Origin: an uncultured Alphaproteobacteria bacterium
Lineage (GTDB): Bacteria; Pseudomonadota; Alphaproteobacteria; Methylaequorales; Methylaequoraceae
DNA length: 64,000 bases
Direction of reading: 5' to 3'
Assembly (NCBI GenBank): GCA_902530985.1
Contig: CACACI010000004.1
Location: 1-64,000 of the forward strand
The notes under the pieces were generated by a model. It did not search any database, was not told the DNA's origin, and saw only the letters and a list, made by a program, of their open reading frames with translations. Below, piece after piece: positions 30,782 through 43,439 of the stretch (its first letter is position 1; each line of letters opens with the position of its first letter). The translations under genes were made by a program, and so were the position numbers.

Positions 30782-31743
30782 TGTCTTTTTATTTTTTTTT
30801 CATAATAATTTTTACTTTTTTTTTCCCTAACTGCCAAGAATTAGCATTTATCACAAATCAAGAGAGTAATATGGTTGATGTAATTGATTTAAATAATAAA
30901 AAAAAGATTAAAGAAATCAAAGTTGGAAATAAGCCCGCTGCCATTTTTGTTGACGAAAATTCAAACCGAGTATTTGTATCAAATCCCGAAAGTAATGATA
31001 TTTCAATTATAGACCTTATCAATGATTCAAATATTTTAATTGATGCTGGTTCAAGTCCTATGGGTATTAGCTTGGATAAGGCAAGAAATTTTTTGTTCGT
31101 ATCAAACTGGTATGATAATACCGTAACAGTTATTGATCTTAATTTAGAAAAGAAAATAAAAATAATTGCTGTGGGAAAGTCCCCAGCAGGAATCTACCTA
31201 GATGAACCTTATAATAGACTTTTTGTATCTAATAGAGAGGACAATAATATTTCAGTAATAGATACAAAAAAATTTATTGTAATGAAAGAAATTAAGGTTC
31301 AGAAGGCACCATTTGGAATTTATTCGGAAAACTATTTAGACTATATCGTTGTCACAAACGTTCAATCTAATTCTATATCAATAATAGATAAAAAACAATT
31401 GAATTTAGTATCAAATATCAAAGTTGGACAATGGCCTTATTCTGCTATTCATAATAAAAATAAAAATCTTCTATATATTACTAATCAAAGAGGAAACAGT
31501 TTATCTATAATAGACATGAATAAACAAAAGAATATATCCACCCTTAGTGAAATATGTGAGTATCCTGAAGGCATTGATATTAGTTACTCACAAAATTTAA
31601 TTGTTGTCGCTTGTTGGTTTCAAGATAATATTATTCTTATTGATATTAATAACTATGAGATAATAAAAATAATTGAGACTTCTGGAGGTCCAAGAGCATT
31701 CGGAAGATTTATTCTAAGTAGAAACAATGAATATCATAGATAA
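30781..31743 (+). CDS. Secreted YVTN-type beta-propeller repeat protein
   Basis: Repeated ~42-aa units: FVSNPESNDISIIDL, FVSNWYDNTVTVIDL, FVSNREDNNISVIDT, YITNQRGNSLSIIDM. Confidence 0.88.
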   Translation: MSFYFFFIIIFTFFFPNCQELAFITNQESNMVDVIDLNNKKKIKEIKVGNKPAAIFVDENSNRVFVSNPESNDISIIDLINDSNILIDAGSSPMGISLDKARNFLFVSNWYDNTVTVIDLNLEKKIKIIAVGKSPAGIYLDEPYNRLFVSNREDNNISVIDTKKFIVMKEIKVQKAPFGIYSENYLDYIVVTNVQSNSISIIDKKQLNLVSNIKVGQWPYSAIHNKNKNLLYITNQRGNSLSIIDMNKQKNISTLSEICEYPEGIDISYSQNLIVVACWFQDNIILIDINNYEIIKIIETSGGPRAFGRFILSRNNEYHR

Positions 31744-33688
31744 AAAAAGAATTCAAGATATGGCAAATGCTATTAGAGCATTATCTATTGATTCAATTGA
31801 AAAAGCGAACTCAGGACATCCGGGCATGCCACTTGGAATGGCAGATGTAGCTACAATTCTTTTTTCTAACTATTTAAAATTTGACTCTCAAAACCCAGAT
31901 TGGATTAATAGAGATAGATTTGTTTTGTCGGCAGGTCATGGTTCAATGCTACTTTATGCTATTTCTTATTTAGTTGGTTATAGAGATTGCACCTTGAATC
32001 AACTTAAAAGTTTTAGGCAATTAGGAAGTAAGACAGCTGGACATCCAGAATATGGTTTATTAAAAAGTATTGAGACTACTACTGGACCGCTCGGACAGGG
32101 GTTGGCAAATAGCGTAGGAATGGCACTTGCAGAAAAAGTTTTAAATCTTAAATATGGAAGTTTGATTGATCATAGAACATGGGTTGTTGTTGGAGATGGA
32201 TGTTTAATGGAAGGTATATCCCAAGAAGCAATCTCTTTCGCAGGTCATCAAAAATTAAATAAATTAATTGTTTTATTTGATGATAATAAAATATCTATTG
32301 ATGGCTCTGTAGATCTAACATGCTCTGATAATCAAGAAAAAAGATTTCAAGCAAGTAATTGGAATACATTAAGTATCGATGGACACGATTTTGATCAAAT
32401 AAATAGTGCAATGAAAACTGCAATTAATTCTGATAGACCAACTTTTATTTCATGTAAAACAATTATAGGTTATGGGTCACCTAATAAATCTGGAACAGAA
32501 ACATGCCATGGCTCACCTTTAGGAAATAAAGAAGCAAAACTAACAAAAAATAATCTTAATTGGTTCTATAAGAATTTCAGTGTGCCTGAAAAAATTTTAA
32601 AAGATTGGAGACAAGTAGCCAAAAAAGGAAAAAAAGCTAAAGATAGTTGGCAAAAACGAATTGATAAATCACCTAACAAAAAATTATTATTAAAACAAAT
32701 GAAGTTGATAAAACTGGATAGGACTGAAGATACTTACAATTTTTTAAATAGTTTAACAAAAAATTCTAAAATAGAGGCAACAAGAAAATCATCCCATAAA
32801 ACACTGGAGTTTTTATACAAAAGAATTGATAAACTCTTGGGTGGCTCAGCAGATCTTACAGGTTCAAACCTTACAAAAATCTCTTCGTCAAGATTAAATG
32901 GAAAAAAACTTAACTATGTTCATTACGGAGTTCGAGAACATTTAATGGCCGCAGCTATGAATGGGGTTGCCGTACATGGTGGTTTTATACCTTATGGTGG
33001 AACGTTCTTAGTTTTTTCAGATTATTGTAAAAATTCAATAAGATTATCAGCAATGATGAAACAACAAGTTATATATGTATTTACTCATGACTCAATTGGT
33101 CTAGGCGAAGACGGCCCAACACACCAACCAATCGAACATCTGGCAGGTTTAAGAGCAATACCAAACTTGAATGTTTTTAGACCATGTGATTCCATTGAAA
33201 CATTTGAGTGTTGGGAAATTGCTATTAATACTCCAAAGGTTCCTTCAGTTCTTGCACTTTCAAGGCAAAACTTACCTCTTCTCAGAAGTAGTTTCAAAAA
33301 AAATCAGTCTGAAAAAGGGGGATATTTTTTAAAAAAACAAAGGAATTATAAGTTAACGATTATTGCTAGTGGATCGGAAGTTTCTATCGCAGTTGATGTT
33401 CAAAAGATGTTGAATAATCAAGGTATAAATGTAAATTTAGTTTCAATGCCGTGCATAGAATTGTTTGAAATGCAGAACAAAAACTACAAAAATAATATAT
33501 TAGGCTTAAAACCAAAAGTTGTAATCGAGGCTTCATCCACCTACAGTTGGTATAAATTTCTAGGCCCCAATGATCTTGTTTTTGGAATAAATAATTTCGG
33601 TGAATCAGGTAAAGCTGAAGAGTTATATAATCACTTTGGAATAACTAAAGAGAAAATATATAAAAAGATATTAAAGGAAATATTGTAA
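31727..33688 (+). CDS. tkt: Transketolase
   Basis: SGHPGMPLGMAD, LSAGHGSMLLY, GPLGQGLANSVGMA, GDGCLMEGISQEA, HDSIGLGEDGPTHQP. Confidence 0.97.
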   Translation: MNIIDKKRIQDMANAIRALSIDSIEKANSGHPGMPLGMADVATILFSNYLKFDSQNPDWINRDRFVLSAGHGSMLLYAISYLVGYRDCTLNQLKSFRQLGSKTAGHPEYGLLKSIETTTGPLGQGLANSVGMALAEKVLNLKYGSLIDHRTWVVVGDGCLMEGISQEAISFAGHQKLNKLIVLFDDNKISIDGSVDLTCSDNQEKRFQASNWNTLSIDGHDFDQINSAMKTAINSDRPTFISCKTIIGYGSPNKSGTETCHGSPLGNKEAKLTKNNLNWFYKNFSVPEKILKDWRQVAKKGKKAKDSWQKRIDKSPNKKLLLKQMKLIKLDRTEDTYNFLNSLTKNSKIEATRKSSHKTLEFLYKRIDKLLGGSADLTGSNLTKISSSRLNGKKLNYVHYGVREHLMAAAMNGVAVHGGFIPYGGTFLVFSDYCKNSIRLSAMMKQQVIYVFTHDSIGLGEDGPTHQPIEHLAGLRAIPNLNVFRPCDSIETFECWEIAINTPKVPSVLALSRQNLPLLRSSFKKNQSEKGGYFLKKQRNYKLTIIASGSEVSIAVDVQKMLNNQGINVNLVSMPCIELFEMQNKNYKNNILGLKPKVVIEASSTYSWYKFLGPNDLVFGINNFGESGKAEELYNHFGITKEKIYKKILKEIL

Positions 33689-34882
33689 ATGATAACCATA
33701 AAAAAAAAGTTTTCTGACTCTTATAACTTTGTTTATAACAAAATTGTTCTTCTTCGCGTAGATTTAAATATTCCTTTTGAAAATAATCAAGTTTTAGACT
33801 CAACTAGAATAAAAAAAATTCTTCCAACTATCAATAATTTACTTAAACATAAAGCCAAGATTATTATTATTTCGCATCTTGGAAGACCAAAAGGTAAATG
33901 GTTAGATGATTTCTCATTAAAAGTTGTAATAAGCGAGTTAGAAAACTTAACAAATAAAAGTGTATTATTTTTTAAAAATAATATTAAAAATATAAAAAAA
34001 GATGAAATTAATGAAAAATTTCAAGACCATGATATAATTGTTTTTGAAAATATCAGATTTTACCCTGAAGAAGAAAAGAACGACCAAAAGTTCACCAAAA
34101 AAATTGCTTCATTAGGAGATATCTATATCAATGAATGTTTTTCATGTAGCCATAGGAACCACTCATCAATCTCTGGAATACCAGAATTTTTGCCTTCTTT
34201 CCCAGGAGAACTTTTAGAAAATGAAATTCAGAATCTAAAAAACCTTTTTCTTTTATCAAATCATCAAGATAGTGTCGCAGTATTAGGTGGAGCCAAAATT
34301 TCAACCAAAATAAAACTTATAGAATTCTATGCGAGTAAATTTTCTAAAGTTTTAATTGGCGGTGCAATGGCTAATACTATTTTGGTCTCTCAAGGTTTTG
34401 AGATTGGAGCATCATTAATTGAGAAAAAAATGATTAAATTCTCAAACGAAGTTTTCAAAATGTTTAAAGATAAAATTTTATTGCCAACTGATGTTATAGT
34501 TTCAGATAAAAAATTATTAAAAAAAGCTGAAGTAAAACTAACAACAGAAATTAATAAAACTGATGTTATTTTAGACATCGGTCCAAAAACTAGAATGTTA
34601 TTCTTTAATGAAGTTGTTAAAGCAAAAACTATTTTATGGAATGGTCCACTTGGTTTTTTTGAAAAAAAACCGTTTGATGAGGGGACTCATTATGTATTAA
34701 AGTCAATTAAAGCTAACAAAAATAAAAATTTCTTTTCTGTCGCAGGTGGAGGTGATACTATATCTATATTAAATCAATCAAATTGTTTTAATGATTTTTC
34801 TTTTGTTTCAACCGGTGGCGGAGCCTTTTTAGAGTTCATTCAAGGTGAAAATATGCCAGGTTTGTCTAGTTTAAATGAATAG
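33689..34882 (+). CDS. pgk: Phosphoglycerate kinase
   Basis: LLRVDLNIPFENN, ISHLGRPKG, FENIRFYPEEEKN, LGGAKISTK, WNGPLGFFE, GGGDT. Confidence 0.97.
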   Translation: MITIKKKFSDSYNFVYNKIVLLRVDLNIPFENNQVLDSTRIKKILPTINNLLKHKAKIIIISHLGRPKGKWLDDFSLKVVISELENLTNKSVLFFKNNIKNIKKDEINEKFQDHDIIVFENIRFYPEEEKNDQKFTKKIASLGDIYINECFSCSHRNHSSISGIPEFLPSFPGELLENEIQNLKNLFLLSNHQDSVAVLGGAKISTKIKLIEFYASKFSKVLIGGAMANTILVSQGFEIGASLIEKKMIKFSNEVFKMFKDKILLPTDVIVSDKKLLKKAEVKLTTEINKTDVILDIGPKTRMLFFNEVVKAKTILWNGPLGFFEKKPFDEGTHYVLKSIKANKNKNFFSVAGGGDTISILNQSNCFNDFSFVSTGGGAFLEFIQGENMPGLSSLNE

Positions 34883-34894
34883 TATGAAGAGATT

Positions 34895-35929
34895 ATGAGT
34901 CATAATAAGTTAAATGAAATAGCAAAAAATTTGTCAAAACCTCCTAAAGGTATTCTAGCAGCAGATGAGAGTACCAATACTATTTCTAAGAGATTTAATG
35001 ATATTAAAGTCGAATCAACCGATGAGAATAGAAGAAAATATAGAGAGTTACTCTTTAAAACAAAAGATTTAAATAAATTTATCAGTGGTATTATTCTCTT
35101 TGATGAAACAATTCGTCAATCAACCTCAGAAAAGGTTCCATTTGGAAGATTTCTTAATGATCTGGGAATAATGCCAGGAATAAAAGTGGATACTGGTGCA
35201 GTTCCGATTGCACCTGAATCTATTGAAAAAGTAACAGAAGGATTAGACGGATTAGGTAAAAGGTTAATTGAATATAAGGAACTTGGAGCCTTATTTACAA
35301 AATGGAGAGCAATAATTGATATCAATGAAGAAAGTAGAATACCCTCTGATTATTTAATAGATTTAAACTGTTCAAACTTGGCAAGATATGCAAAAATTGT
35401 CCAGGATCATGGCATGGTTCCTATTGTTGAACCAGAAGTTTTAATGGACGGTGCTCATTCTATAGAAAAATGTTATGAGGTAACCTCAAAAACTCAAAAA
35501 TTACTTTTTAAAAAATTAGATCATAACGATGTAAATCTAAAAGGAATACTTTTAAAACCTAATATGATTATTTCAGGAAGAAAATCACCATCACAAGCTT
35601 CTATTTCTGAAGTGGCATCACAGACTGTTAAATGTTTAAAAGAAAATGTGCCAAAAGATGTTCCTGGAATTGTTTTTCTATCTGGTGGACAATCTAATGA
35701 GTTAGCAACTCAGCATCTAAATGAGATGAATAAATCTAATGAAGAAAAACCATGGAATTTAAGTTTTTCTTATGGCAGAGCACTTCAACAACCAACACTA
35801 AATGCATGGCAAGGAAATGATAATAAAATCTCAAATTCGCAAAATGCGTTATTTAAAAGAAGCAAATTGAATTCAAGTGCCACTCTTGGAAAATATTCAG
35901 AGGATCTAGAAAACTCAAATTATGAATAA
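34895..35929 (+). CDS. Fructose-bisphosphate aldolase class I
   Basis: KGILAADESTNTISKRF, ILLKPNMIISG, FLSGGQSNELATQHL, WNLSFSYGRALQ. Confidence 0.96.
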   Translation: MSHNKLNEIAKNLSKPPKGILAADESTNTISKRFNDIKVESTDENRRKYRELLFKTKDLNKFISGIILFDETIRQSTSEKVPFGRFLNDLGIMPGIKVDTGAVPIAPESIEKVTEGLDGLGKRLIEYKELGALFTKWRAIIDINEESRIPSDYLIDLNCSNLARYAKIVQDHGMVPIVEPEVLMDGAHSIEKCYEVTSKTQKLLFKKLDHNDVNLKGILLKPNMIISGRKSPSQASISEVASQTVKCLKENVPKDVPGIVFLSGGQSNELATQHLNEMNKSNEEKPWNLSFSYGRALQQPTLNAWQGNDNKISNSQNALFKRSKLNSSATLGKYSEDLENSNYE

Positions 35930-36572
35930 AAAGGTGAAAATCGCACCATCAATTCTTTCTGCAGATTTTTCAAAACTTGGTGATGAGATTTCTGATCTCG
36001 ATAAAACAGATTGTGATTATATTCATATAGATATAATGGATGGACATTTTGTTCCAAATATAACAATAGGGCCAAACGTTATTAAATCAATAAGAGGATA
36101 TACTGACAAAACATTTGATGTTCATTTAATGATTGACCCAGTAAAAAAATTTATACCTGAATTTGCAAATGCAGGTGCAGATATAATAACTATACATCAT
36201 GAGATTAAGGAAAATGTATTTGACTCAATTTCTGTAATAAAAGAATTCAATAAAAAAGTTGGTATTTCAATTAAACCATCTACTCCCGCAAAAGTAGTTG
36301 AAAAATACTTAGATTATACTGATTTAATACTAGTGATGACTGTAGAGCCAGGTTTTGGTGGACAAGATTTTTTACATAAACAATTAGATAAAATAAAAGA
36401 TATTAAAGGCATGATAGGAAATAAAAAGATCGACCTAGAAGTTGATGGTGGAATTAACTTAAATACTTCAAAAAAGGCTATAAATGCAGGAGCAAATGTA
36501 TTGGTTTCGGGTTCAACAATTTTTCAGTGTAGTGAGTATAAAAAAATAATAAAAGATCTCAGGAATGTATGA
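35922..36572 (+). CDS. rpe: Ribulose-phosphate 3-epimerase
   Basis: IAPSILSADFSKLGDEI, HIDIMDGHFVPNITIGP, VMTVEPGFGGQ, LEVDGGI. Confidence 0.97.
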   Translation: MNKKVKIAPSILSADFSKLGDEISDLDKTDCDYIHIDIMDGHFVPNITIGPNVIKSIRGYTDKTFDVHLMIDPVKKFIPEFANAGADIITIHHEIKENVFDSISVIKEFNKKVGISIKPSTPAKVVEKYLDYTDLILVMTVEPGFGGQDFLHKQLDKIKDIKGMIGNKKIDLEVDGGINLNTSKKAINAGANVLVSGSTIFQCSEYKKIIKDLRNV

Positions 36573-37570
36573 ATTCAACAATAATAAAATTATCTATTTT
36601 TTGTCTTCTTTTTTTTAATAAATTGAATTCACAAAACCTTGTTACTGTTGGAGCTCACAAACCTATTATAAAAGAAATTTCAGATACTTTAGAACTCCCA
36701 GGCTCAGTTGTTGCAAATGAGAGCGTTAAGATAACAAGTGTAGTTTCTGAAAAAATAAAAAGAATTCTTTTCAAGGAAGGCAGATTTGTAAAAAAAAATC
36801 AATTACTCGTAGAATTAATAGATAATGAAGAACAAGCTTTATTGATGCAGGTGCAAGCAGAACTTGAAGAAGCACAAGTCAATTACGAAAGAGCACTTAT
36901 ACTATCTAAAAAAGGAAATATTTCTCAATCCATTCTTGATAATAGACTTATGACAAAAAAGAAATTGTCAGGAAAGGTTAAAGAAATTAAAGCACAAATA
37001 GAAGATCTTAAAATTAAAGCTCCTTTCAATGGTTTAACTGGTATAAGAAATTTTAGCGAGGGATCATTTATAAAACCCGGTGATGTTATTACAGAACTTT
37101 ACGATACAGAATTTTTGAAAATCCAAGCATATGTTCCAGAAAGCTATTCTGATCAAGTTAAAGTTAATAGTAATTTTATTTTAGATTTAAGTTCAAAAAA
37201 AATTGAAGAGATAAATGGTAAAATATCAGTTGTAAATCCAATAGTAGATGAAAATACAAGAACTTTTAAAATCTTAGGTAGAATTAATAATTCTAAAAAC
37301 AATATTATGCCTGGAATGATGGTTAATTTAAAGATCCCTCTGGCAAAAAGAAATGCATTCATTGTAAGAGAAAATGCAATTCTAAGTCAAGACAACCTAT
37401 CTTTTGTTTATGTAATCATTGATCAAAATATTGTATCAAAAAAAAAAATAGAAGTTGGTTTTCGTAATGATGGGATGGTAGAAGTTTTAAATGGTTTAAA
37501 CTCTGATGATTTAGTAGTTTTTGAGGGTATTAATAAAATTAAAGAAGGTTCTAAAGTTAAGATAAGATGA
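36569..37570 (+). CDS. RND efflux periplasmic adaptor (membrane fusion protein)
   Basis: Signal peptide; LELPGSVVANESVKITS, KIKAPFNGLTGIRNFSEGSFIKPGD. Confidence 0.9.
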   Translation: MNSTIIKLSIFCLLFFNKLNSQNLVTVGAHKPIIKEISDTLELPGSVVANESVKITSVVSEKIKRILFKEGRFVKKNQLLVELIDNEEQALLMQVQAELEEAQVNYERALILSKKGNISQSILDNRLMTKKKLSGKVKEIKAQIEDLKIKAPFNGLTGIRNFSEGSFIKPGDVITELYDTEFLKIQAYVPESYSDQVKVNSNFILDLSSKKIEEINGKISVVNPIVDENTRTFKILGRINNSKNNIMPGMMVNLKIPLAKRNAFIVRENAILSQDNLSFVYVIIDQNIVSKKKIEVGFRNDGMVEVLNGLNSDDLVVFEGINKIKEGSKVKIR

Positions 37571-40500
37571 ATTTTTCAGAGTTTTTTATAAAAAAACCAG
37601 TTTTTTGTTCAGTACTTGTAGTATTTTTAATCATACTCGGGCTTCTTTCTTTAAAAAAACTACCACTTAGGCAGTTCCCAGATATTGAAAGATCTGAAAT
37701 TACTATAGATACTCTTTATCCAGGTGCTGCTTCAGAAATTATTGAAACCAAAATCACAGAAATTCTTGAAGGACAAATAAGTGGAATTGATGGAATAGAG
37801 TCCATCTCTTCTGTAAGCAGAGATGGAAGGTCAAAAGTTACAATAGAATTTAAGGCTGACAAAGATATTAATGAAGCCGCTAATGATGTTAGAGATGCCG
37901 TTTCTAGAATTCTAGAAAATCTACCTAAGGATTCTAATCCACCTGAAATATCAAAGATTGATTCTGACGCCAATGCGATTATGTGGTTAAATTTAACTTC
38001 AAATGACATAAATCAATTAGAACTTACAGATTATGCAGAAAGATACTTAGTTGATAGATTATCAGTTATACCTGGTGTAGCAAAAGTTCGACTCTCAGGT
38101 GGTAAAAAGAAATCATTGAGGATATGGCTCGACCCTAAACTCCTATCCCAATATTCAATATCAGTCTCAGAGATTGAACAAAAACTTTTAAACGAAAATA
38201 TAGAAACACCCGCGGGAAGAATTGAGTCAAAATATAGAGACTTTACAGTTAAGCTTGAAAGTGGATACAAAACTGTTAATGATTTTGAGAATTTAGTAAT
38301 TAAAAGAGTTGATAGTTTTTCATTTGTTAGATTAGGTGATGTTGCTAAGATTGAAATTGGTCCAGAAGAGACTAGACAAATCTTCAGAGGCAATGCAGAA
38401 GAAATGATTGGACTTGGAATTTTAAAACAAAAGTCAGCAAATTTAATTGATGTAACAAATAAGGTAAAAGAAGAATATGCTAGAATCAAAGACGAACTTC
38501 CGCAAAGTATTAATATTTATCAAAGCTATGATACTTCACTTTTTGTGTCTGAAGCGCTTCAGGAAGTAATATTCACCCTTTGTTTTGCAGTGCTTTTAGT
38601 TACTATTATAATATTAATTTTTTTAAGAAATATTAAAAGTTCAATAATTCCAGTTTTAACGGTACCTATCTCAATTTTATCAACTTTTATTTTCCTAAAT
38701 TTGTTTGGATTCTCTTTAAATCTTATTACTCTTTTAGCTTTAGTGCTATGCACAGGGTTAGTTATTGATGACTCAATAGTAATGTTAGAAAATATTCATA
38801 AAAGAATTGAGTCAGGTGAATCAAAGTTATCTGCTGCTATAAATGGTTCTAAAGAAGTGCTATTCGCAATTTTATCAACTTCAGTTGTTTTAATTAGTAT
38901 TTTTATGCCAATAATTTTCTTAGAAGGAGACACAGCTAAACTTTTTCAAGAATTAGCAGTAACTGTTATAGGCGCGGTTGTATTTTCTACAATAATATCT
39001 TTAACATTAACTCCTATGCTGTGCTCCAAAGTATTAGATTCACCAACAAATAATAACAAAACAAAAAGATTTGAGGAATTATATATAAAATTACTTTCAT
39101 TTTTTCTTAATAAAAAACTAATTTATCCAATACTTATTATTCCAATTATTTTATTTTCGATTTTTTTATACAAGAATATTGCAAAAGAATTTGCACCACA
39201 AGAAGACCGAGGTGTTTTTATTATGGTGATGGAGTCACCAGAGGGTAGCACATTTGAAAATACGGTAAATCAAATGTTAAAGCTAGAAACAAAATTAATT
39301 GAATTCAATAAAAATAATGAGGCAAAACGAATTCTTTTAAGAGTTCCAAGAAGCTTCTCAGGTACTCAAAATTTTAGTGATGGACTTGGTATAATAATTT
39401 TAAATCATTGGGATGATAGAAGAACAATTTGGGAAATAATCGATGAATTTAGGAGTATATCGACTGAAATTACTGATTCAAAAGTAATAATTTTTCCTCC
39501 ACGTGGTCTGGGACAAAGAAGGTCAGGTCAACAACTTCAATTTGTGATTTCAGGAGACTCCTATCAAAATATTAACCAAAATATGAAAATCATTCTAGAT
39601 GAGATCAAACAGAATAAGAACTTTCTTTTTAGTAGAATTGATTACAAAAAAAATAGACCTCAAATTAAAATAAAAATAAATAAAAACACCGCCTCAGATC
39701 TTAAAGTTTCAAACTTTCAAATTGGCAGAACTCTTGAGATACTTCTTGCTGGGAGGAAAATTAACACCTTCATAGAAGATGGAGAGGAATATTATGTAAT
39801 TGTTCAAGCAAAGAAAGAATATAGACAGAATATAAAAGACATTGGAGCATTTGAAGTAAAATCATTGGATGGAAACTATATTAGATTAGATAGTTTTTTA
39901 GAGTTCCAAGAAGTTGCAGAAGCAAAAGAGCTGAACAGGTATAACAAAATGAGATCTATCACGCTTAGTGCTGGCTTACAAAAAGGATATTCCTTAGGCG
40001 AAGCAATAAATTATTTAGAGAACTTATCTAAAGAAAAACTAAAAGGAAATTTTAAAATCGATTTCAAAGGACAAAGTAAAGAATATAAAAAATCAATGAA
40101 TCAATTTTATTTTTTATTTATAGTTTCCTTTATTTTTGTTTATCTTATTCTTTGTGCTCAATTTGAAAGCTACAAATTTCCTCTTATAATAATGTTATCT
40201 GTACCTTTAACTATTGTAGCTCCCCTTAGTGGAATATATTTATTTAATAACTCATTAAATATATTTAGTCAGATAGGTCTAATTATATTAATTGGTATTG
40301 CAGCAAAAAATGGCATTCTAATAGTTGAGTTCGCTCGGCAAATGAAATTAAAAGGAGAGAATTCATACAATGCCATTATTAAAGCATGTAAAAAAAGATT
40401 TAGACCTGTTATTATGACAGGTTTTTCTACTGTGATTGGAATTATACCATTAGTTTTAGGTTCCGGAGCTGGTTTTGAATCAAGATTAACAATTGGGATT

Positions 40501-40584
40501 GTTTTGATCACTGGAATTATTTTTTCTATTTTTTTAACATTATTTATAACCCCATTTTTCTTCAGAATTATTGATAAAAAATAA
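37567..40584 (+). CDS. RND efflux inner-membrane transporter (AcrB/HAE1 family)
   Basis: 1005 aa; FFIKKPVFCSVLVVFLIILG, LALVLCTGLVIDDSIVMLENIHK, VYLILCAQFESY, GIAAKNGILIVEFA. Confidence 0.95.
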   Translation: MNFSEFFIKKPVFCSVLVVFLIILGLLSLKKLPLRQFPDIERSEITIDTLYPGAASEIIETKITEILEGQISGIDGIESISSVSRDGRSKVTIEFKADKDINEAANDVRDAVSRILENLPKDSNPPEISKIDSDANAIMWLNLTSNDINQLELTDYAERYLVDRLSVIPGVAKVRLSGGKKKSLRIWLDPKLLSQYSISVSEIEQKLLNENIETPAGRIESKYRDFTVKLESGYKTVNDFENLVIKRVDSFSFVRLGDVAKIEIGPEETRQIFRGNAEEMIGLGILKQKSANLIDVTNKVKEEYARIKDELPQSINIYQSYDTSLFVSEALQEVIFTLCFAVLLVTIIILIFLRNIKSSIIPVLTVPISILSTFIFLNLFGFSLNLITLLALVLCTGLVIDDSIVMLENIHKRIESGESKLSAAINGSKEVLFAILSTSVVLISIFMPIIFLEGDTAKLFQELAVTVIGAVVFSTIISLTLTPMLCSKVLDSPTNNNKTKRFEELYIKLLSFFLNKKLIYPILIIPIILFSIFLYKNIAKEFAPQEDRGVFIMVMESPEGSTFENTVNQMLKLETKLIEFNKNNEAKRILLRVPRSFSGTQNFSDGLGIIILNHWDDRRTIWEIIDEFRSISTEITDSKVIIFPPRGLGQRRSGQQLQFVISGDSYQNINQNMKIILDEIKQNKNFLFSRIDYKKNRPQIKIKINKNTASDLKVSNFQIGRTLEILLAGRKINTFIEDGEEYYVIVQAKKEYRQNIKDIGAFEVKSLDGNYIRLDSFLEFQEVAEAKELNRYNKMRSITLSAGLQKGYSLGEAINYLENLSKEKLKGNFKIDFKGQSKEYKKSMNQFYFLFIVSFIFVYLILCAQFESYKFPLIIMLSVPLTIVAPLSGIYLFNNSLNIFSQIGLIILIGIAAKNGILIVEFARQMKLKGENSYNAIIKACKKRFRPVIMTGFSTVIGIIPLVLGSGAGFESRLTIGIVLITGIIFSIFLTLFITPFFFRIIDKK

Positions 40585-40589
40585 AAAAA

Positions 40590-42248
40590 TTATCCAGCTT
40601 TTTCTATGTTCTGAAAATTTTTTTCACCAAAATAAGTCTCATCAATTTCAAATTCTTTTAAACTTAATGAATAATAATTTTCAAACCATTCTTTAATCTT
40701 TTTATGAATATTCTTGTCATATGACAATTTAAGACATTTTGTTGATGTTTTTAAATTTTTATGAACTTTTCCGTTTTTAACAATTTCAATACCATTTTTA
40801 AATACATATTCTGCATTTCTGAACATTTTGTCGATTGGTTTTTTTGGGTTGTAGATAGAAATATCAGCTACAGATCCAAATTTTAGAGAACCCCTGTCTG
40901 TTAAGCCAAGAATTTTTGCTGGGGCTGCCCTTGTCATTATAGCTAACTCATAAAAACTATAAGTTCTTTTAATAAATTTTAAATCACTCATATCTTTTGC
41001 ATAATTATTAATTTTGTCTAGCTCAGAATTTCTAAAATCAAGGTCCATTAATAATCTTATTAATTCTGGATAAGAAGTAAAAGGGGCACCATTTGGATGG
41101 TCTGTGGTTAGAAAAACTCTCCAAGGGTCCTTTATCAATAAAAAAAGTTCTAACCCTATTGCCCATTGAAGTGCATTTACAAAATTCTTTTCTTTATATT
41201 CATAAGGTATTATGCCCCCTCCCCCATCTTCAATTTCTGAGATCACCCATTTTTTTGGATTCGCATGAAGTTTTGATTGATTCTGCTTCCAGATATCTGA
41301 AGAAATTGTCATCGTTGGTTTAAACATTACTTGACCTATATCCACTGAAATATTTTTATTTTTATTTATTTTTTCAGCTAACTCTTGAGACCCTGAAGAA
41401 AATCCTTTTTTACCCTTACTATCATATCCGTAAAACTGAATATGAGCTAAGTGCATTCTTCTTCCTTGGGCAGCATCTATAGTACTCAACACAGAACTTA
41501 TGTTTCCAGCCATCCCCAAATTATTACAATGAACATGTACTGGGTGAGGAATCTTTAGGTTCTCGTTAGCAATATTGAGGGATTCTAAAATCTGCCTTGA
41601 ACTAACACCATATTCTGGAACAATGTCATCTAAATTAAATGATTCAGATTCTCCAGTACGTTTAAAAAACTCTGAGCCACCTGCATTAATAACTTTCAAA
41701 CCAAGACACTTAGATGAATTAATGTTCCATGCAACATAGTCATCAATAAAAGACTGTCCTTTTTTTTTGTTTAAAGCATCAAGCAAAAGAGTATCATTAC
41801 CAACAATTCCTAAGCAACCTTTATCGATCATTGGAATTTTCTCCAACTCTAATTGAGTTAAGAAAGCATTAATAGGAAGTACCGCAGGTTCAATAACTGT
41901 AGTGAAACCCATCTCAGCATATCTATACCCAGTACCTTCTGAAGTCCATCTTGAATTAAAACCTGGAAGAAGTTTCTTTCTATTTAGATTATATTCTAAA
42001 AAATTAGAATGGATTTCAGGCGATAGCAATCGAGCATTGTTTACATTTCCTCCAGCTATATGAGAATGAATATCTATAGCTCCAGCCATAACTATCATCC
42101 CTTTTGCATCATAAGTATTCTGATAATCCTTGATTTTTGACTTTTCAGGTTTAACAATTAATCCGTCATCTACATACAAATCTTGTTTTTTTCCATTAAT
42201 ATTTTGTGAAGGGTCGTAAACAGTACCATTTAAGATTTTAAATTTCAT
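40590..42248 (-). CDS. Formylmethanofuran dehydrogenase / formyltransferase-hydrolase complex subunit A-like amidohydrolase (FwdA/FhcA family)
   Basis: GAIDIHSHIAGGNVNNARLLSPE, GLKVINAGG (carboxylated-Lys region), HPVHVHCNNLGMAGN, GRRMHLAHIQFYGY, LTTDHPNGAPFTSYPELIRLLMD, MTRAAPAKILGLTDRGSL. Confidence 0.88.
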   Translation of the reverse strand: MKFKILNGTVYDPSQNINGKKQDLYVDDGLIVKPEKSKIKDYQNTYDAKGMIVMAGAIDIHSHIAGGNVNNARLLSPEIHSNFLEYNLNRKKLLPGFNSRWTSEGTGYRYAEMGFTTVIEPAVLPINAFLTQLELEKIPMIDKGCLGIVGNDTLLLDALNKKKGQSFIDDYVAWNINSSKCLGLKVINAGGSEFFKRTGESESFNLDDIVPEYGVSSRQILESLNIANENLKIPHPVHVHCNNLGMAGNISSVLSTIDAAQGRRMHLAHIQFYGYDSKGKKGFSSGSQELAEKINKNKNISVDIGQVMFKPTMTISSDIWKQNQSKLHANPKKWVISEIEDGGGGIIPYEYKEKNFVNALQWAIGLELFLLIKDPWRVFLTTDHPNGAPFTSYPELIRLLMDLDFRNSELDKINNYAKDMSDLKFIKRTYSFYELAIMTRAAPAKILGLTDRGSLKFGSVADISIYNPKKPIDKMFRNAEYVFKNGIEIVKNGKVHKNLKTSTKCLKLSYDKNIHKKIKEWFENYYSLSLKEFEIDETYFGEKNFQNIEKAG

Positions 42249-42357
42249 TTTGCAAATTGGATTTTTAAGTAGTATTAAATATATTACTTTAAATTTTTTT
42301 TTTTAGTACAAGATTATTAATTATCAGATTAATTTAAAATAGAAAGAAAAAGATATT

Positions 42358-42966
42358 ATGGATTCAAGTTCACCAAAAAAAATAAAGCTGGCACATCAGA
42401 ATAAAGTAAGCAGAAAAGAAGCAGAAAAAGCAGTGGAGACACTAATTCGCTGGGCAGGTGATGACCCTGAAAGAGAAGGTTTACGTGAAACTCCAAAAAG
42501 AGTTATCAATGCCTATGAAGAGTTTTTCTTAGGCTATAACGAATCGCCAGAGAAAATCCTTTCCAAAACCTTTGAGGATGTCCAAGGTTATAAAGACATG
42601 GTAATGTTAAAAGATATACCCTTTAATTCTCATTGTGAACATCATATGGTACCCATAATAGGAGTTGCTCACATTGCTTACATTCCGGTAAAAAGAGTAG
42701 TTGGTATTTCCAAGTTAGCAAGAACAGTTGAAATCTTTGCCAAGAGACTCCAAACACAAGAAACAATGACTCAACAGATCTCAACTGCAATTAATAATGC
42801 AATGAAACCAAGAGGAGTTGCTATTTACATCAAAGCTATTCACCAATGTATGACAACTAGAGGAGTTGAAAAACCAAATGTCTCAACAATCACAAATTCT
42901 TTTTTAGGTGAGTTTAAAACAGACTTAAACTTACAAAAAAGATTTTTGAATTATATTATGGACTAA
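42358..42966 (+). CDS. folE: GTP cyclohydrolase I
   Basis: DDPEREGLRETPKRV, FNSHCEHHMVPIIG, GISKLARTVEIFAKRLQTQE, HQCMTTRGV. Confidence 0.97.
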   Translation: MDSSSPKKIKLAHQNKVSRKEAEKAVETLIRWAGDDPEREGLRETPKRVINAYEEFFLGYNESPEKILSKTFEDVQGYKDMVMLKDIPFNSHCEHHMVPIIGVAHIAYIPVKRVVGISKLARTVEIFAKRLQTQETMTQQISTAINNAMKPRGVAIYIKAIHQCMTTRGVEKPNVSTITNSFLGEFKTDLNLQKRFLNYIMD

Positions 42967-43439
42967 TGATTAAGAGTTTCAGTAAAAGAGAATCTATTTT
43001 TGAAGTTGAAGAGGGCACAACACTTCAGCCAAAGTTCGACGACAACAACTTGATCCCTGTAATTACTGTGGATTCAAATAACAATCATATACTTATGCAC
43101 GGTTACATGAATCCTGAGGCATTTAAATTATCAATGAATACAGGAGAAGCCCACTATTGGTCAAGAAGTAGGAAATGTATTTGGAAAAAAGGTGAAACAA
43201 GTGGTTTAAAACAAAAGATAAAAGAAATTAAAATAGATGATGACCAAGATTGTGTTATTTTTAAAGTAGAGCTAGGGGGACTTAAGGCTAGTTGTCATGT
43301 TGGGTACAAATCCTGTTTTTACAGAAAATTGGCTTTAGCTGACAATAAATATTCAATTAAACTTGAGTTTACTGAAAAAGAAAAGGTTTTTGACCCTAAA
43401 GAAGTTTATGGAGATGCCCCAAACCCTACCAAACTTTAA
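42966..43439 (+). CDS. hisI: Phosphoribosyl-AMP cyclohydrolase (HisI) with C-terminal extension
   Basis: MHGYMNPEAFKLSMNTGEAHYWSRSRKCIWKKGETSG, CHVGYKSCFYR; overlaps folE stop. Confidence 0.92.
   Translation: MIKSFSKRESIFEVEEGTTLQPKFDDNNLIPVITVDSNNNHILMHGYMNPEAFKLSMNTGEAHYWSRSRKCIWKKGETSGLKQKIKEIKIDDDQDCVIFKVELGGLKASCHVGYKSCFYRKLALADNKYSIKLEFTEKEKVFDPKEVYGDAPNPTKL

Follow-up and report, generated by a model that had tools for sequence, protein, structure and literature searches.

Background

In the formyltransferase/hydrolase (Fhc) complex, formyl-H4MPT gives up its formyl group to complex-bound methylofuran, a transfer carried out by FhcD; hydrolysis by FhcA then releases formate (PMC8141765, PMC11656701). 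The binuclear-metal site of the hydrolase subunit requires four His, one Lys and one Asp as ligands, Lys64 of archaeal FwdA has been suggested to act as a formate gate, and the Methylorubrum extorquens complex has lost the metallopterin (PMC11656701). The alphaproteobacterial order TMED127, which includes MED657, AG-892-F10 and TMED13, has been renamed Methylaequorales, and a methylotrophy island has been described for it with the same modules that we find on contig C1 of the genome studied here (PMC12542740); the methylotrophy pathway of this lineage is thus known. TMED127 reportedly ranks with the open-ocean methylotrophs of highest transcriptional activity. Since the term 'fhc' is absent from the text of PMC12542740, the displaced fhcA and the conflicting phylogeny presented below are undiscussed in its main text, and our literature search found no description of a displaced, discordant fhcA subunit.

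The gene considered here lies on contig C4, in a stretch of 64 kb that was analysed as a whole (the window). Its genome (G000; 1.12 Mb, 45 contigs, 78% complete) was examined by family searches and by reading the stretches around the matches. MED657, AG-892-F10 and TMED13 are among its relatives, and AG-892-F10 belongs to the same genus.

Identity and surroundings of the fhcA gene

The open reading frame is real: it starts with ATG on the minus strand, encodes 552 amino acids and contains all five motifs on which the original prediction was based. The surroundings are also as predicted: the gene sits between an RND pump and folE, and fhcB, fhcC and fhcD are absent from the 64-kb window.

37567..40584, plus strand: RND efflux pump, convergent neighbour with 5 bp between it and the fhcA end (ORF reading; conserved order)
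40590..42248, minus strand: fhcA, hydrolase (A) subunit of the formyltransferase/hydrolase complex (552 aa, ATG start; TIGR03121 and 6s6y matches)
42249..42357, no strand: divergent fhcA-folE intergenic region, 109 bp (sequence; promoter scan)
42358..42966, plus strand: folE, GTP cyclohydrolase I, conserved neighbour of fhcA (comparison of TMED127 loci)
42966..43439, plus strand: hisI, conserved neighbour downstream of folE (ORF reading; locus comparison)

This arrangement is kept across TMED127 in the order tkt-pgk-fba-rpe-RND-fhcA (reversed)-folE-hisI-aldehyde dehydrogenase, and folE adjoins fhcA in all loci that reach that side (26/26). The sugar-phosphate cluster tkt-pgk-fba-rpe beside the RND pump (window 31727-36572) has a conserved order of its own throughout TMED127. 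When the fhcA region was scanned by simple means for promoters and terminators, matches were no better than chance, with none promoter-like in 42249..42357. The base composition of fhcA (GC 31%, GC3 21%) is unremarkable beside the neighbouring genes, so there is no compositional sign of recent transfer.

The assignment to the FwdA/FhcA family was confirmed. Against NCBIfam, the product scored 628 bits with TIGR03121 (formylmethanofuran dehydrogenase subunit A; curated cut-off 392.75) and 423 bits with the related archaeal FwdA model. Models of other amidohydrolases (dihydroorotase, D-hydantoinase and similar families), any of which might have claimed the protein, reached at most 51 bits, all below their cut-offs, and Pfam detected only the generic Amidohydro_3 fold. 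The closest solved structure is the FhcA of 6s6y (E 1.5e-126), which outranks every archaeal FwdA, and this homology is decisive for the fold. The product is therefore FhcA, which in a normal bacterial Fhc complex is the amidohydrolase subunit with a binuclear metal site.

Alignment bears out the expected metal ligands and carboxylated Lys, as H61, H63, K185, H238/H240/H266/H269 and D383 are all kept:

42060..42068, minus strand: HxH metal-ligand motif codons (H61, H63), His invariant in the alignments
42045..42047, minus strand: N68 codon, matching the 'gatekeeper' residue Lys64 in archaeal FwdA by position (alignment; 6s6y comparison)
41694..41696, minus strand: K185 codon, expected carboxylysine, conserved in all aligned FhcA apart from one X
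41529..41537, minus strand: HVH codons (H238, H240), candidate metal ligands (FhcA alignments)
41442..41453, minus strand: HLAH codons (H266, H269), candidate metal ligands (FhcA alignments)
41100..41102, minus strand: D383 codon (TTDHPNG), expected ligand and general base, invariant in the FhcA alignments

The His residues of HxH are invariant in an alignment of 56 FhcA proteins (one X) and also in a broader sample of 60, and K185 aligns with the corresponding Lys of 6s6y. Residue 68 is Asn in TMED127 and in Methylorubrum-type FhcA and Lys in the other FhcA type. Asn68 in place of Lys64 would fit an enzyme that releases formate rather than trapping it; the change is not required, as K-type bacterial FhcA also occurs with FhcB proteins without cofactor motifs.

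Partner genes and the methylotrophy island

The genome-wide search for fhcB, fhcC, fhcD, mch, mtdB, fae and H4MPT biosynthesis genes located all of them on contig C1, where fhcB-fhcD-fhcC occupies 24.4-27.2 kb; the sole fhcA is on C4. The gene is thus not an orphan, as the original prediction had it, and its other suggestion, a dispersed C1 cluster, holds: fhcA lies apart from the rest of the H4MPT pathway. A second fhcA elsewhere, which together with a distant fhcBCD would also have contradicted the orphan status, was not detected by family search in this 78%-complete genome, in which fhcA is single copy.

On C1, hopanoid-type genes are followed by fhcC-fhcD-fhcB and a pterin carbinolamine dehydratase (minus strand); then by beta-RFAP synthase, mtdB, mch, an MptN-like ligase, a CitG-like protein and fae; by homologues of MfnD, MfnF, MfnB and MfnE (methylofuran), DUF447, a dihydropteroate-synthase-like protein, a flavoprotein and FolB; and finally by xoxF, a cytochrome (xoxG), an xoxJ-like binding protein, a cupredoxin-like protein and pqqE/D/C/B-like genes. 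The C1 genes were named from family matches, xoxF from its closest solved structure; for the hopanoid genes, the cytochrome, xoxJ, the cupredoxin and the pqq genes, names come from reading the sequences and agree with the published island. Profile scores were 185 bits for fhcC (TIGR03122), 414 for fhcD, 378 for mch and 255 for fae. The FhcB match was weak (58 bits, cut-off 328), and the assignment of this gene combines that match with its position in the fhcB slot and its tree. An MtdB-type Mpt_N domain was also matched. Methylofuran and H4MPT biosynthesis is present, judged by the MfnB/D/E/F homologues, the beta-RFAP synthase family, the dihydropteroate-synthase-like protein and the flavoprotein, several of which score under the equivalog cut-off of the model concerned. 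The closest solved structure to XoxF is 6oc5 (E 4e-258). Searches of this 78%-complete genome yielded neither formate dehydrogenase nor FTHFS; each is present in most relatives. Outside the island lies a further Fae homologue, divergent and scoring about 134 bits (G000:C6:52579-53073), with equivalents in most TMED127 genomes.

No FhcB from any TMED127 genome contains the metallopterin Cys or an Fe-S motif (no CxxC or CHG), as would be expected from the M. extorquens complex. By analogy with described systems, XoxF would oxidise methanol to formaldehyde, and Fae with MtdB/Mch would carry it on H4MPT to formyl-H4MPT. FhcD would transfer the formyl group onto the methylofuran that the Fhc complex carries, and FhcA would hydrolyse the formyl-methylofuran to formate, with FhcC and the FhcB lacking a redox cofactor as the presumed scaffold.

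Our TMED127 sample of 32 genomes, in one family and 12 genera, agrees with PMC12542740, and gaps are expected, given that the genomes are 54-96% complete. We detected fhcA in 27 of them, fhcD in 22, fae in 29, FTHFS in 23, a XoxF-type enzyme above cut-off in 20 and formate dehydrogenase above cut-off in 25. In one genome with 4% contamination, part of a second fhcA stands at the end of a contig (G028:C37:5-628), probably through assembly redundancy or contamination.

Displacement from the fhc operon

Outside TMED127, fhcA was found upstream of fhcD in 48 loci, directly so in 47; the remaining locus (G262) has two genes between them. Exceptions among the outgroups are G304, where contigs are broken, and G895, with fhcB-fhcA and fhcD-fhcC on different contigs (L142, L145), which is an independent break-up of the operon in another alphaproteobacterium. 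In TMED127, fhcD comes immediately after fhcB: no fhcD locus of this order has fhcA directly upstream, and none has it between fhcB and fhcD. Residence of fhcA inside the operon is customary and unnecessary for function. In one genus of TMED127 (g9; G020 and G027, loci L119, L153 and L154), fhcD-fhcC is also parted from fhcB and the island is further scattered.

Conflicting phylogenies of FhcA and FhcBCD

Two types of FhcA can be distinguished by four residues: K-type proteins have K68, P189, T268 and H273, as in archaeal FwdA, and N-type proteins have N68, A189, A268 and Y273, as in 6s6y. A few deviate at one position (e.g. P189 in G574, H68 in G766). TMED127 FhcA is of the N type and shares its four derived residues; among the sampled genomes this type occurs elsewhere only in the order of G311, presumably Hyphomicrobiales, since 6s6y shares its residues. 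In the tree of FhcA homologues, TMED127 falls with Methylorubrum-type FhcA (support 100/100). The partner subunits place it with f23, a family of alphaproteobacteria with genomes of about 1 Mb (support 96/97 for FhcD, 98/93 for FhcC and 99/97 for FhcB).

The groups compared in the AU tests were named after the first pair of trees had been seen, so all the p-values that follow are somewhat optimistic. FhcA rejected a grouping of TMED127 with f23 (p 0.00017) and with f23 and its allies (0.0002). Conversely, the unrecoded FhcB, FhcC and FhcD trees each rejected TMED127 with the N type, and concatenated FhcBCD rejected the position of TMED127 in the FhcA tree (p 0.003-0.014). Because TMED127 and f23 both have small genomes of skewed composition, amino acids were recoded (SR6, Dayhoff6). 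FhcA kept its position (p 0.003 with SR6, 0.03 with Dayhoff6), as did concatenated FhcBCD (0.0095 and 0.014), also after removal of the f23 rows (0.016 and 0.047); the placement of full FhcA likewise held without f23. Recoded single-gene tests were not significant for FhcB and FhcC, nor for FhcD under Dayhoff6.

The FhcA signal is located in residues 42-364, where the core favours the N-type position with an AU value of 6e-6. Residues 1-41 and 365-548 lean weakly and non-significantly to the f23 position, with p 0.067-0.62 for the N-type alternative across codings. Without its 12 strongest columns, FhcA gave p 0.003 unrecoded and, with significance lost, 0.07 and 0.13 recoded. Columns exceeding 0.5 log units numbered 121 for the FhcA placement vs 109 for the opposite.

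In three other genomes (G743, G815, G849), FhcA is K-type and FhcB falls outside the N-type clade, yet FhcC and FhcD nest among N-type genomes; their fhc operon is an apparent second mosaic, with fhcA in place.

Origin of the displaced subunit

These data make it probable, in our view, that the gene encodes a normal Fhc subunit with its partners in the island, and that a foreign-type fhcA, of Methylorubrum type at least in its catalytic core (residues 42-364), took the place of the native copy. Most likely, the native gene was replaced by a copy of foreign type, or recombined with one, before the radiation of the order. A foreign-type fhcA would have entered at the folE locus, replacing the native catalytic subunit, and the native gene would then have been lost from between fhcB and fhcD. 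We favour this fuller scenario with somewhat more reserve, namely exchange of the catalytic subunit from another lineage by distant insertion, deletion of the native gene, and retention of a complex with two ancestries across nearly all genera sampled. The enzyme activity, the direction of transfer and the assembly of such a mixed complex are what the sequences suggest.

The behaviour of the chain ends means that the foreign part may be the core only, or that the active-site region converged. Recombination that swapped just the barrel core (about residues 42-364) and left native ends would explain a strongly N-type core (AU 6e-6) with ends drawn towards the K-type group, and we regard it as a possible, though doubtful, course of events, given that the preference of the ends is non-significant in every coding and could reflect weak signal. 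That the native fhcA simply moved to the folE locus, the tree conflict being due to active-site convergence, composition or long-branch artefacts, seems unlikely. The slight preference of the ends for f23 agrees with it, and a composition shared by two small-genome groups could distort the FhcBCD trees; however, the FhcA placement survives two recodings, f23 removal and, unrecoded, the loss of 12 columns, the column counts lean the same way, and the FhcBCD placement withstands recoding and f23 removal.

Some alphaproteobacteria (G089, G381, G359) carry two fhc clusters, as might be expected had both fhcA types been present in the alphaproteobacterial ancestor and been lost differentially with no transfer. 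We consider this quite improbable: no sampled genome has N-type and K-type fhcA together, and the additional copies carried by G089 and G381 form a third, deeper clade. The original prediction's alternative of a stand-alone metallo-hydrolase, acting on another substrate, has the physical separation of fhcA from fhcBDC in its favour and deserves hardly any credence in view of the equivalog score, the full ligand set, the single copy in the genome and the co-occurrence of fhcA with fhcBDC, mch, mtdB, fae and the methylofuran genes, that is, with a complete H4MPT/methylofuran pathway, across the order.

A false lead is thereby removed, as there is no new stand-alone FhcA function, and a partial C1 operon in one window or contig proves a poor guide to the whole genome. 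In TMED127, the key subunit would escape any search that demands the whole fhcBADC operon. If the replacement by a foreign-type copy is true, Fhc would exemplify a channelling enzyme of several subunits in which the catalytic one can be exchanged.

Comparison with known systems

The new elements are limited to the displaced position of fhcA and the conflict between the trees of FhcA and its partners, which is well supported though not final. The hopanoid, H4MPT/C1, XoxF and PQQ modules on C1 are like those of the published TMED127/Methylaequorales island (PMC12542740). Archaeal FwdA of formylmethanofuran dehydrogenase (5t5i, 9sfi) shares the fold family and the ligand set; in TMED127, however, Asn takes the place of the gatekeeper Lys64, and FhcB has neither the metallopterin Cys nor the Fe-S motifs, so CO2 reduction is not to be expected. 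An archaeal-type CO2-fixing FwdA is not supported, as the motifs of a redox-active FwdB partner occur in no TMED127 FhcB. The closest counterpart is FhcA of M. extorquens (6s6y), to which the TMED127 protein is homologous over its full length, with the same metal ligands and the same N/A/A/Y signature, and as in M. extorquens the partner subunits FhcB, FhcC and FhcD are present in the genome. Unlike in M. extorquens, fhcA of TMED127 is found next to folE and apart from the fhc operon, and its FhcB, FhcC and FhcD partners come from a different branch of their families.
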